A stretch of DNA of 64,000 nucleotides from positions 1 to 64,000 of the forward strand of contig JACQDV010000035.1 in NCBI GenBank assembly GCA_016200915.1, in the 5' to 3' direction. Every line of letters starts with the position of its first letter. Within the stretch, counting starts at the first letter, position 1. The notes under the pieces were generated by a model, which searched no databases, was not told where the DNA came from, and saw only the letters and a program-made list of their open reading frames with translations. Both the position numbers and the translations under genes were made by a program. The DNA comes from Sphingobacteriales bacterium. GTDB taxonomy: Bacteria > Bacteroidota > Bacteroidia > Chitinophagales > Chitinophagaceae. This document shows positions 9,111 to 52,648 of this stretch, in pieces.

Positions 9111-9120
9111 TTGAATAATA

Positions 9121-9153
9121 AAAAAACATCCGCCAGCTGGCGGATGTTTTTTT
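9121..9153. terminator. Bidirectional terminator between LEA14-like and A2M genes
   Basis: The stem CATCCGCC-AGCT-GGCGGATG, with A run on the left and T run on the right, is symmetrical and can end transcription of both convergent genes. Confidence 0.85.
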
Positions 9154-9162
9154 ATTGGATAA

Positions 9163-21037: not shown

Positions 21038-21923
21038 AAGCAACTTCATGACCAGTGGATGCTCTCCATAACATAAACCATTCCTGTCTTTCCATTTTTA
21101 TTTTTACTGCTTCCAGAGCTTTCTTTATTCTTTCTGTTTTGGATGTTCCCAATACAGGTATAATGCCGGAAGGATGTTGCAGTAACCAGCTCAATAAAAT
21201 CTGGTCAGGAGCTACACTATATTTTTCTGCCAGTAAATTTGCAACTGCAATAATGCGTTTAGCTCTTTCATCTTCTTCTGCCTGTGCAAATAAATTACCT
21301 CCACCTAAAGGACTCCAGGCAGCAGGGATAATATTTTTGGTGATGCACTGATCTAATGTTCCATCAATAAATGGTTTTAGATAAAGAATGGATATTTCAA
21401 TTTGATTGGTAATGATGGGAAATCTTGAAGCAATCATTTCCACTTGTGATGGAGTGAAATTGGAAACACCAAAGTGTAAAACTTTTCCCTGCTCTTTTAA
21501 ATGCGTAAAGGCTGCTGCTATTTCATCGGGATGCATTAAGGGATCGGGACGATGAATCAATAGCAGATCAATATAATCAGTATGTAAATGTTTTAAGGAT
21601 AGATTGGCTGAATGAATGATATGCTCTTTTGATGTATCATAATGCTTAATGGTGTGATGCGGACGGTTAGGTGTAACCATTTTAATTCCGCACTTGGTTA
21701 TTAATTGCATTTGTGAACGCAATTCTTTTCTTTCAGCCAATGCTTTACCAAATTCTTCTTCTGTTGTGTAATGCCCATAAATATCTGCATGGTCAAAACT
21801 GGTAATACCCATCTGCATGCAATCATCAATCAGTTGCAGGTACTGGTTGGTATCGAACTTACTTCCCCATATACCCCACTTCATTGTTCCGGCAATTACA
21901 GGAGAGAATTTTATTTGATTCAT
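21036..21923 (-). CDS. Aldo/keto reductase (YdhF-like)
   Basis: A 295-residue NAD(P)H-dependent oxidoreductase with a TIM-barrel fold. The catalytic tetrad is visible: Asp in FDHADIYGHY, Tyr four residues on, Lys in LITKCGIK and His in LLLIHRPDPLMHPDE. The last motif and HYDTSKEHI are typical of the YdhF subgroup. The cofactor-binding end (WSPLGGGNLF, IIPVLGTSKTERI) is intact. The physiological carbonyl substrate is unknown. It is a single gene with the start at 21923 (MNQIKFSPV). Confidence 0.92.
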   Translation of the reverse strand: MNQIKFSPVIAGTMKWGIWGSKFDTNQYLQLIDDCMQMGITSFDHADIYGHYTTEEEFGKALAERKELRSQMQLITKCGIKMVTPNRPHHTIKHYDTSKEHIIHSANLSLKHLHTDYIDLLLIHRPDPLMHPDEIAAAFTHLKEQGKVLHFGVSNFTPSQVEMIASRFPIITNQIEISILYLKPFIDGTLDQCITKNIIPAAWSPLGGGNLFAQAEEDERAKRIIAVANLLAEKYSVAPDQILLSWLLQHPSGIIPVLGTSKTERIKKALEAVKIKMERQEWFMLWRASTGHEVA

Positions 21924-22011
21924 TAGTAAGAATAAATTGTAATGAAAGTTAGTTCAATAAAATTGAAATGAGTTTTTGAACGTATTTTCAAAGCGTTCAT
22001 GATAATAAAAA

Positions 22012-22034
22012 AATCCTCCCGTACAGAGAGGATT
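22012..22034 (-). terminator. Terminator of the RRM-protein gene
   Basis: A 9-bp stem (AATCCTCTC / GGGAGGATT on the minus strand, one G-U pair) and 5-nt loop, followed by a T run, lies 27 nt past the stop codon. Confidence 0.75.
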
Positions 22035-22060
22035 CAATATTTTTTGAACTGCTGACTTAA

Positions 22061-22510
22061 TTAATAGTCGTTACCACCACGGTCACGGTTATAACCACCG
22101 CCATTACCACGGTCACGGTTGTAGCCGCCACCACCTTTGTAACCGCCGCCACCGCCGCGGCCACCGCCACCACCTTTGAAGCCGCCACCGCCGCCACGAC
22201 CACCGCCGCCGCCGCGGAAACCGCCGCCACCACCGCCGCGAAAACCACCACCACCGCCGCTGCGTTCTGGTTTGGCTTCTGCTTCGTTTAGTTTAAGGTT
22301 GCGACCCATAATTTCTTTGTCGTACAAACTGCTGAGTGCATTTTGTGCTTCGCTGGCTTCTGGCATTTCAACAAATCCAAAACCTTTGCTGCGACCGGTA
22401 AATTTGTCCATGATAATTTTTACACTGGCTACAGTACCGTACTGTTCAAAAAGAGTTCTTAAGTCATCCTCACTCATTTCCCAGGAGAGGTTGCCTACAT
22501 AAATGTTCAT
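22061..22510 (-). CDS. Glycine-rich RRM RNA-binding protein
   Basis: A 149-residue cytoplasmic protein. The first 80 residues form one RNA-recognition motif: RNP2 is IYVGNL at residues 3-8 and RNP1 is KGFGFVEM at about residues 43-50. The rest is a glycine/arginine/phenylalanine-rich tail (GGGGGFRGG, GGGYNRDRG repeats), which usually adds low-specificity RNA binding. Bacteroidota, like cyanobacteria, often encode such proteins with a post-transcriptional or cold-shock role. The start ATG at 22508-22510 is inside a 13-bp perfect inverted repeat in the mRNA (22505-22577), so translation may be structure-controlled. A terminator follows. Confidence 0.93.
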   Translation of the reverse strand: MNIYVGNLSWEMSEDDLRTLFEQYGTVASVKIIMDKFTGRSKGFGFVEMPEASEAQNALSSLYDKEIMGRNLKLNEAEAKPERSGGGGGFRGGGGGGFRGGGGGRGGGGGFKGGGGGRGGGGGYKGGGGYNRDRGNGGGYNRDRGGNDY

Positions 22511-22577
22511 TGTAACAATTGATTTAATGAAAAAAAACTTTTAAAAAACCCAAATGCAATAAGCTGTTACAATGAAC
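22505..22577 (-). promoter_or_regulatory. 5' leader hairpin sequestering the RRM-gene start codon
   Basis: Positions 22505-22517 (GTTCATTGTAACA on the plus strand) and 22565-22577 (TGTTACAATGAAC) are perfect reverse complements over 13 bp. In the mRNA the 3' arm contains the AUG and second codon. The 47-nt loop holds a U-rich run and four more possible base pairs (AUUG/CAAU) beyond a bulge. This is a candidate thermosensor or autoregulatory site; function is inferred. Confidence 0.6.
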
Positions 22578-22680
22578 TGAAGAAACCGGACAAGGTTAGC
22601 TTAATGTCAGCCATTGAAAAAACTATGCATAAAGAGCATAGTAAAGATAGTATTTTTTGATAAAGTGCCTAAAAATTAAA

Positions 22681-22702
22681 AGTCCCCAACTTGTTGGGGA
22701 CT
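22681..22702 (-). terminator. Terminator of rpsF-rpsR-rplI, also a repeat unit
   Basis: The perfect hairpin AGTCCCCAAC-TT-GTTGGGGACT is followed on the minus strand by TTTAATTTTTA, 25 nt past the rplI stop. A degenerate copy (19 of 22 positions) lies at 23193-23214 on the other side of rplI. Confidence 0.75.
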
Positions 22703-22727
22703 AACAATTGTTGTTATGGGGTAAGAA

Positions 22728-23174
22728 TTATTCAGCTACCACCTCAAATTGTACTTCAGTTTCGTTACCGTTACCAAAGTCAATTTTGGCTTTGTAAGTG
22801 CCCAATTCTTTAACATCGTCAATGATGTGGATACGGCGACGGTCAATTTCATAACCTTTCTGATCACGGATAGCACGGCCAATTTGTACAGAGGTTACGC
22901 TACCAAAAATCTTTCCGCTGGTACCAGTTTTAGCACCAATTTTTACCGGGCCTTCCTGTAATTTGGCAATTACGCTATTGATTTCAGCTAACATTTTAGC
23001 TTCTTTCTTTTGTAATTGCTTCATTCTTTCTTCCAGTTGAGCCAGGTTAGAAGGAGAAGCTTCTACCGCCATTTTTTGAGGAATTAAATAATTACGGGCA
23101 TAACCATTACGAACTTTTACCACTTCGTTGGCACCGCCAAGGTTATTTACATCCTGAATTAATATTACCTGCAT
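22728..23174 (-). CDS. rplI: 50S ribosomal protein L9
   Basis: A 148-residue protein with the L9 N-terminal signature (QVILIQDVNNLGGANEVVKV, then GYARNYLIPQKMAV) and a long connecting helix (LEERMKQLQKKEAKMLAEI). The C-terminal domain carries GKIFGSVTS and IGRAI. It is the last gene of the rpsF-rpsR-rplI operon, 116 nt behind rpsR. That gap is unusually long and holds two intergenic repeat elements. An intrinsic terminator follows. L9 bridges the L1 stalk base and influences frame maintenance. Confidence 0.97.
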   Translation of the reverse strand: MQVILIQDVNNLGGANEVVKVRNGYARNYLIPQKMAVEASPSNLAQLEERMKQLQKKEAKMLAEINSVIAKLQEGPVKIGAKTGTSGKIFGSVTSVQIGRAIRDQKGYEIDRRRIHIIDDVKELGTYKAKIDFGNGNETEVQFEVVAE

Positions 23175-23192
23175 TGTTTTGCATTTTTACCC

Positions 23193-23214
23193 AATCCCAA
23201 ACTTGTTCGGGACT
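23193..23214. repeat. Degenerate copy of the rplI terminator hairpin
   Basis: Matches the hairpin at 22681-22702 at 19 of 22 positions, keeping the ACTTGTT centre and the GGGACT end. It lies in the rpsR-rplI gap and can still form an imperfect stem. Confidence 0.5.
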
Positions 23215-23270
23215 TTCATCCGTTTTACCGGAATTAGGGTGGTTAAAAAATTTGTTTAAACTTATCCTTA

Positions 23271-23291
23271 CCCCTTCAGGGGCAGGGGTTT
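23271..23291. repeat. CCCCTTCAGGGG intergenic repeat, copy 2
   Basis: CCCCTTCAGGGG followed by CAGGGGTTT closely matches the unit at 21016-21037. It sits directly at the 3' end of rpsR and could form a small hairpin between rpsR and rplI. Confidence 0.5.
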
Positions 23292-23554
23292 TATTTCATT
23301 AAATCTGTTACGTAAGGTAACAATGCCATTTGACGGGCTTTCTTAATAGCATCGCCTACTTTACGCTGATACTTTAAAGAGTTACCGGTGATACGGCGGG
23401 GTAACATTTTACCCTGTTCGTTCAGGAATTTCTTTAAAAATTCAGCATCCTTGTAATCGATATAACGGATGCCCATCTTTTTGAAACGGCAATATTTTTT
23501 GCGGGGCTGTTCAGCCTTCATCGCCGTTAAATACTTGATTTCGTTTTTTGCCAT
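23291..23554 (-). CDS. rpsR: 30S ribosomal protein S18
   Basis: An 87-residue basic protein with the S18 core: [38 protein letters not shown] and the C-terminal [20 protein letters not shown]. It pairs with S6 on the 30S platform. The gene begins 4 nt after rpsF, as is usual for this operon, and is followed by a repeat-containing spacer before rplI. No single-strand-binding protein gene lies between rpsF and rpsR, in contrast to Proteobacteria and Firmicutes. Confidence 0.97.
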
Positions 23555-52565: not shown

Positions 52566-52648
52566 GATAATGGATAGTTGATAGTGGATAATGAAATGCA
52601 ATAAATACGAGATAATTATTCACTCTCCACTATCAACTATCCATTATC
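52566..52648. repeat. Intergenic quasi-palindrome, 30-bp arms, between cphA and cphB
   Basis: The arms 52566-52595 and 52619-52648 are reverse complements at 28 of 30 positions, separated by 23 nt. The left arm has no C and consists of GATAATGGATAGTTGATAGT-type near-repeats. Similar plan to 7818-7900 and 47384-47470. Confidence 0.8.

Follow-up and report, generated by a model that had tools for sequence, protein, structure and literature searches.

A conserved leader that can pair with the start codon of an RRM protein gene in the Chitinophagaceae, a probable translational switch

Why should the start codon of a gene for an RNA-binding protein lie inside one arm of a long and perfect inverted repeat? 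The gene that raises this question, in the 64,000-nucleotide stretch of DNA analysed here (the window), encodes a 149-amino-acid protein with an RRM at residues 3-73 and a Gly-rich tail (Pfam RRM_1, 6.4e-23), which belongs to NCBIfam NF058537 (Rbp_regulator) with 115.1 bits against a curated cut-off of 100. The original prediction placed the AUG and the second codon in the 3' arm of a perfect 13-bp stem with a spacing of 47 nucleotides and a U-rich loop, and re-reading the sequence found this description exact. The elements concerned are the following.

22510-22061, minus strand: gene of the 149-aa RRM RNA-binding protein, ATGAAC start (ORF list)
22577-22565, minus strand: 5' arm of the repeat, the 'anti-start' GTTCATTGTAACA, perfect complement of 22505-22517 (sequence)
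22517-22505, minus strand: 3' arm of the repeat, the start region TGTTACAATGAAC (TGTTACA-ATG-AAC; sequence)
22518-22564, minus strand: U-rich linker with T at 25 of 47 positions, the loop when the start-trapping hairpin forms (sequence)

All 13 of the 13 pairs between the arms are Watson-Crick pairs across a 47-nucleotide spacer, and the AUG (22510-22508) and codon 2 (22507-22505) lie entirely inside the 3' arm. The start-trapping hairpin is the minimum fold of 22480-22585 at -20.2 kcal/mol, compared with a mean of -13.85 for shuffled sequences (z -2.35), 3 of 200 of which were as good. The 64-kb window holds four perfect inverted repeats of 13 bp or more with a spacer of 3-60 nucleotides, compared with an average of 0.13 for 30 simulated windows, and 2000 simulations put the probability of one such repeat within the local 280 bp at about 0.001. 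The start-codon repeat is not due to chance. The U-richness between the arms also proved general in leaders of the same family, with a mean T content at -45..-12 of 0.51 for the 88 leaders of the family, 0.38 for 39 RRM leaders from other families and 0.33 for 36 ORFs of the window.

For the repeat to act in RNA, both arms have to be transcribed. The bL9 gene (Pfam) lies upstream of the RRM gene on the same minus strand, and is itself preceded by two minus-strand ORFs that we take, by eye, to be bS18 and bS6. Because a terminator-like hairpin follows bL9, the sequence suggests that the RRM gene has a promoter of its own.

22702-22681, minus strand: terminator-like hairpin 3' of bL9 (terminator scan)
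22642-22649, minus strand: -7-like promoter box TATCTTTA, upstream of both repeat arms (sequence)

The promoter consensus of Bacteroidota comprises a TAnnTTT-like -7 box and a -33 box. A TAnnTTT-like box is present at -150..-105 in 50 of the 88 family leaders, and no clear -33 box accompanied the -7 boxes in the window or in these leaders; a sigma-70 promoter scan of 21900-23400 is uninformative for promoters of this phylum. From the box, transcription is predicted to start near 22638, giving a leader of about 128 nucleotides. At the 5' end of this predicted transcript we also noted a terminator-like hairpin that has a 7-bp stem and a T run (22622-22642, minus strand) and shares its ATGCA with an outer helix, P1, of the alternative fold described below.

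The original prediction had named loss of the pairing in related genomes as the outcome that would speak against it, and this check came out otherwise. A search with the protein across 244 genomes of its family, the Chitinophagaceae to judge by named relatives, gave a match at 1e-20 in 193; the leaders analysed are those of the 88 best-scoring orthologues among the 193 matching genomes, not of all (G144 is not included), and represent 97 family loci minus seven paralogues of the window's genus and minus L037 and L091 (contig edge, shifted start). Each leader was matched for an exact complement to its start region, -9..+14, with expected counts taken from shuffles. A complement of at least 8 nucleotides was present in 66 of the 88 leaders where 2.8 were expected, in all 66 beginning at -72..-48, and one of at least 9 nucleotides in 53 (0.7 expected); 11 of the 22 leaders without an 8-nucleotide match have 7. 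Matching the same 88 leaders to coding sequence at +20..+43 gave 5 matches (1.1 expected) and at +43..+66 a single one, and the region above the leader gave 6 of 88 (2.2 expected). The complement was found in none of seven RRM paralogues of the window's genus, in 2 of 42 other ORFs of the window, and in 3 of 39 other-family RRM leaders (40 minus L120, on a short contig), where 2.2 were expected and the position was different, -92..-86. Moreover, in 44 non-redundant leaders the excess of duplex strength over shuffled sequences had its peak at the start codon, reaching -3.5 kcal for a 14-nucleotide target starting at -4.

Leaders of the window's type were present in Terrimonas (L138), Niastella vici (L139) and Ferruginibacter (L145); of two other named Chitinophagaceae genomes, the element was absent from one (L174) and the other (L213) had a 9-nucleotide match reached by 45 of 200 shuffles. 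Within the window's genus, one of the two other species (L005) carries a mismatch in the 5' arm. Five of 80 named RRM loci passed a threshold of 3 in 200 shuffles, which is about the chance level, three of these five being in other phyla and at other positions, and no Flavobacterium locus among the named loci passed. Taken together, these sequence comparisons support the view that the pairing is conserved and is specific to the start codon of this RRM gene.

The pairing comes in three registers, the leader types being assigned by pattern and by eye. In type I, which includes the window, Niastella and Terrimonas, an anti-start CAGTTCATTGTAGCAAC or similar pairs with TTGTTACA-ATGAAC; in type II GTAAATGTTCAT or similar pairs with ATGAACATTTAC; and in type III ACGTAAATG-C-TTCA or similar pairs with TGAACATTTACGT, with one bulge. 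As read from these sequences, the anti-start is variable in both sequence and register among clades and the start codon remains its target; the register shift amounts to a natural compensatory experiment. We carried out a swap test with 42 leaders (the 44 minus L061 and L035), in which each leader combined with its own start gave a mean of -17.18 kcal/mol against -14.20 for swapped combinations, a difference reached by 0 of 2000 permutations; the own start was better than the mean of the swaps in 32 of the 42. In the controls, 710 and 311 of 2000 permutations did as well for coding sequence and 1724 of 2000 for the upstream region. Synonymous codons gave a similar picture. In types II and III, where codons 3-4 lie within the pairing, ATT and TAC are each used in 40 of 40 genes, against 24 and 15 of 34 in type I, where these codons lie outside it; the 14 unclassified leaders have ATT in 12 and TAC in 10, and codon 2, paired in all three types, is AAC in 74 of 74. 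On these counts, which are not independent because the genes are related, synonymous codon choice tracks the pairing register.

Within each type, 84-93% of the cells of the start helix are paired, compared with 25-59% when the helix is slid. Since the 3' side is fixed by coding, conservation of this helix alone is weak evidence, and compensatory changes in it were absent from types II and III and numbered one cell in type I, with no excess over shuffles. The alignments cover 24 of 29 type I leaders (A4), 17 of 18 (A3) and 15 of 16 (A2, L091 being among the 16), the remaining leaders being unaligned by type. Before the leaders were split by type, an alignment of type I gave a six-pair start helix and one of all other leaders pooled gave no structure.

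The anti-start was found to have a second potential partner, of which the original prediction makes no mention. When pairing with the start was forbidden, the best predicted fold of the window leader used the following strands.

22616-22607, minus strand: 'decoy' CAATGGCTGA, 5' strand of helix P3 and competing partner of the anti-start (predicted)
22570-22580, minus strand: 3' strand of P3, TCAGTTCATTG, overlapping the anti-start (predicted)
22626-22630, minus strand: 5' strand of the alternative outer helix P1, ATGCA (predicted; other type I leaders support a P1 at this position)
22554-22558, minus strand: 3' strand of P1, TGCAT (predicted)

In this alternative fold the anti-start is enclosed by the outer helix P1 and a helix P2, and the decoy is a weaker partner than the start; in type II the decoy GAACGTTT is similar to the start region ATGAACATTT. 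Automatic folding with RNAalifold (ribosum scoring, altered weights) on local-pair alignments recovered the fold for types II and III, and consensus folds on other alignments gave the start-trapping helix alone in types I and II, and P2 with the inner helices alone in type III. Counted on structures chosen from the automatic fold and by eye, a choice that favours them over slid versions, paired cells made up 92.7% in type III (30-52% when slid), 93.5% in type II (31-51%) and 91.4% for P1 and P2 of type I on alignment A8, without the window's genus (26-48%); on alignment A4 the outer helices of type I were paired in 78.7%, with covariation below that of shuffles. Two-sided changes in type III involved 7 cells at 5 pairs, values reached by 1 and 17 of 500 shuffles, and a control slid by -2 columns matched them with 6 pairs and 8 cells at 35% paired; in types I and II there was no excess of such changes. 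A swap test of the outer alternative helices was discounted, its upstream control being nearly equal (16/2000).

Folding predictions were made with the start region left out, and the anti-start was then paired upstream with a mean probability of 0.56, 0.89 and 0.84 in types I, II and III (21, 17 and 19 leaders), compared with 0.31, 0.30 and 0.34 when the upstream part was shuffled; for the window leader the value was 0.86. In the full window leader the start-trapped state (OFF) is predicted to be favoured by about 4 kcal/mol. Over the 57 leaders the mean preference for OFF at 25 C was 3.8, 1.2 and 2.9 kcal/mol for types I, II and III, and OFF exceeded 0.9 at this temperature in 18 of 21, 4 of 17 and 9 of 19 leaders. 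In the relatives, sequence comparison supports a helix that competes for the anti-start segment; for the window we infer from the models the decoy fold, the fold that would dominate and an initial ON state of the nascent RNA.

Covariance models built on these folds tied the element to RRM genes. The model of the type III fold (R1) matched 58 of the 244 family genomes, 15 of which had been used for training; all 30 of the 30 loci inspected directly precede an RRM gene, and among the remaining 29 matches 19 lay 12-30 nucleotides above a listed RRM match, 6 had no listed match to set them against and four weak ones were away from an RRM gene (G120, G085, G189 and the second of G060; E 4.5e-4 to 0.0056). 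The type I model (R2), built without the window's genus, matched 28 of 244 genomes, 21 of them training genomes, and all 28 matches lay 22-34 nucleotides upstream of an RRM match. A stricter whole-genome search with R2 at E 0.01 did not list the window's genus, and within the window the best match was the leader itself.

22546-22635, minus strand: leader segment recognised by R2 (30.2 bits, E 0.001; next match in the window 20.9 bits)

This match is driven mostly by sequence, several of its P1 and P2 pairs being non-standard.

Because the pairing is conserved and specific to this gene's start codon, the best reading of the locus is a translational switch in the leader; this much of the original prediction gained support, and the RNA thermometer that it offered as one form of the switch did not, as set out below. 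We propose that the 5' leader is a strand-exchange switch controlling translation of the RRM gene, probably an autoregulatory one, and consider this the likelier account of the data. The anti-start at 22577-22565 would be a single segment with two mutually exclusive partners: pairing with the upstream decoy (22616-22607) would leave the start region free of it (ON), and pairing with the downstream start region (22517-22505) would hide the AUG and codon 2 (OFF). Since the decoy is transcribed before the start region, a new transcript would be expected to begin in the ON state, and would later refold to the more stable OFF state unless held open by ribosomes or protein. The most likely user of such a switch would be the RRM protein itself, lowering its own synthesis by favouring OFF, and such autoregulation is plausible in view of the distant homologue RbpB, described below. 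The leader would then offer a simple, testable handle on RRM-protein feedback. A bolder version, which we regard as rather improbable, sees decoy, anti-start and start as a three-strand relay: new, decoy-folded transcripts would be translated, and the RRM/Gly-rich protein would serve as annealing chaperone on its own mRNA and speed the exchange to the start-trapped fold. If so, the leader would gauge the RNA-chaperone activity of the cell instead of a ligand or temperature, and the family would have seen at least one shift of the start-codon register with the logic kept.

Temperature enters two competing explanations. In a cold-responsive leader of the cspA kind, temperature and not the RRM protein would set the balance between the folds, with more translation in the cold; two exclusive folds supported in relatives and predicted in the window are what it calls for, and a small cyanobacterial RRM/Gly-rich protein is required for cold adaptability, according to the accessible text of that report (PMC9333190). 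The folding predictions for it diverge. On a long construct, pairing of the window anti-start with the start region fell to 0.09 at 10 C compared with 0.86 at 37 C, and the AUG of L005, a leader in which the start-trap is predicted to form at no temperature, was more open at 10 C (0.87) than at 37 C (0.54). However, on the same long construct the window AUG was mostly paired elsewhere at 10 C (unpaired 0.37, 0.04 and 0.05), the sister leader L004 kept its trap at 10 C (0.95), a shorter construct of the window gave a probability of OFF of 1.0 at 10, 25 and 37 C, and in each of the three types cold slightly increased the mean preference for OFF. We therefore hold a cold-set balance to be an outside candidate. 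Much further down stands the simple thermometer of the original prediction, a 13-bp hairpin that melts on warming and frees the start codon. An AUG within a hairpin with a U-rich loop would suit it, but the trap in the window is predicted to stay closed at 10, 25, 37 and 45 C, and to our knowledge long helices without internal mismatches are unlike the known melting thermometers; we think this reading very unlikely.

The same stability could instead mean that nothing is switched, the hairpin acting as a static brake that keeps translation at a low, constant level or protects the mRNA from decay. Such a brake would fit the preference for OFF by about 4 kcal/mol in the window and the 18 of 21 type I leaders in which OFF exceeds 0.9 at 25 C; a constant brake, however, needs neither a competing helix that buries the same segment nor a near-balanced equilibrium such as that of type II (mean 1.2 kcal at 25 C), and we judge it unlikely, a little more so than a cold-set balance. 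Transcription attenuation, with the alternative hairpin and a U-rich stretch forming a terminator in the leader, has in its favour the T-rich tracts seen by eye after this hairpin in many leaders. Yet the terminator scan of the minus strand above the start returned only 22702-22681 and 22642-22622 and not the alternative hairpin, and attenuation leaves the match between anti-start and start codon unexplained, because the start would be made only after such a terminator; we give it slightly less credence than melting. Least probable of all, in our view, is action in trans, in which the leader or a processed fragment would pair with other mRNAs that begin AUGAAC, for instance those of the RRM paralogues: six of the seven genus paralogues do start ATGAAC, but in the swap test the match followed the own start region of each gene and not a shared target.

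None of the leaders tested (the window, 12 family loci and 4 named family loci) matched an Rfam family at its gathering score, and a literature search of titles and abstract openings, with few subscription papers covered, found no account of this leader. The conserved start-hiding leader of an RRM gene in one large family would be a structured RNA for which Rfam 15 has no match. We disregarded weak Rfam matches, which in the window stayed below the gathering score and in L011 (Leu_leader, 33.3 bits, cut-off 50) and L040 lay above the leader. A similar genomic setting is that of the Chlorobi-RRM RNA (RF01697), a structured leader just upstream of a homologous bacterial RRM gene, as the available part of its description has it (Weinberg et al. 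2010, PMC2864571). Its model (cut-off 45 bits) found no match in the window, the 12 family loci or the 4 named family loci and, as a positive control, recognised three Chlorobi RRM leaders at 74.6-82.5 bits. In contrast to the family leaders, these three have no start-codon complement above shuffles, and Chlorobi-RRM is a distinct leader of homologous genes.

In function, the closest two-state leader is the cspA mRNA thermosensor of E. coli, which likewise precedes the gene of a small nucleic-acid chaperone, has conformers that differ in ribosome access and is acted on by its own protein, so far as the accessible text goes (PMC9947658). CspA, however, is a cold-shock-domain protein and not an RRM protein, and it stimulates where we propose repression; the predicted cold response of the RRM leader, moreover, differs between constructs and relatives. 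Nearer to the protein itself is RbpB of Bacteroides thetaiotaomicron, an RRM protein and distant homologue of the 149-aa protein, for which the accessible part of the report records a CLIP site on its own rbpB mRNA, mentions potential autoregulation and describes no start-trapping leader (PMC11697453). Our counts for RRM leaders of other families were at chance level.

Control by leader structure is familiar from autoregulatory ribosomal-protein leaders such as rpsO, where an RNA-binding protein lowers initiation from the mRNA that encodes it. The logic proposed here is alike, and the RRM leader differs in that its start codon pairs with an upstream segment having a competing decoy. Some RNA thermometers also hide the initiation region inside a helix; the RRM leader differs from these in its long perfect helix, its lack of predicted melting and its second competing fold.

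Several further observations were made along the way. Both the Chlorobi-RRM loci (L157, L189 and L204) and type II and III leaders carry the motif UUGGUUAC 3' in their main stem; it is present in 14 of the 88 family leaders, and is on sequence a candidate recognition site for the RRM, to be taken as a lead only. TTGGTTAC is also found in 14 of the 88 family leaders and, among 40 other-family leaders, in L134 alone, which by eye resembles Chlorobi-RRM. Another Bacteroidota family (f22) has two further conserved kinds of RRM leader, one pair (L117/L129 or L119/L125) carrying GACCTATAGCTCTG and the other pair a GGCTATGTTTCTGA-like sequence.

The RRM paralogues of the window's genus have leaders of their own. 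In a second RRM gene (L002, L006 and L007) a nearly invariant leader with no start complement begins sharply, about 130 nucleotides upstream of the start, at a -7 box (TATCTTTG in L002 and L006, TATATTTG in L007). A third paralogue (L003, L008 and L010) has leader blocks in common (TTACG, AGTAACAATT and neighbours), a conserved core that is perhaps related to type I leaders. Elsewhere in the window, a perfect 23-bp inverted repeat with arm GATAATGGATAGTTGATAGTGGA and a 37-nucleotide spacer (52566-52648, between two genes) looks like a dispersed repeat, CCATTGACCATTCAC-like units being found ahead of the gene in L009, and an 18-bp perfect stem with a 4-nucleotide loop between two convergent ORFs (9117-9156) is a probable bidirectional terminator.
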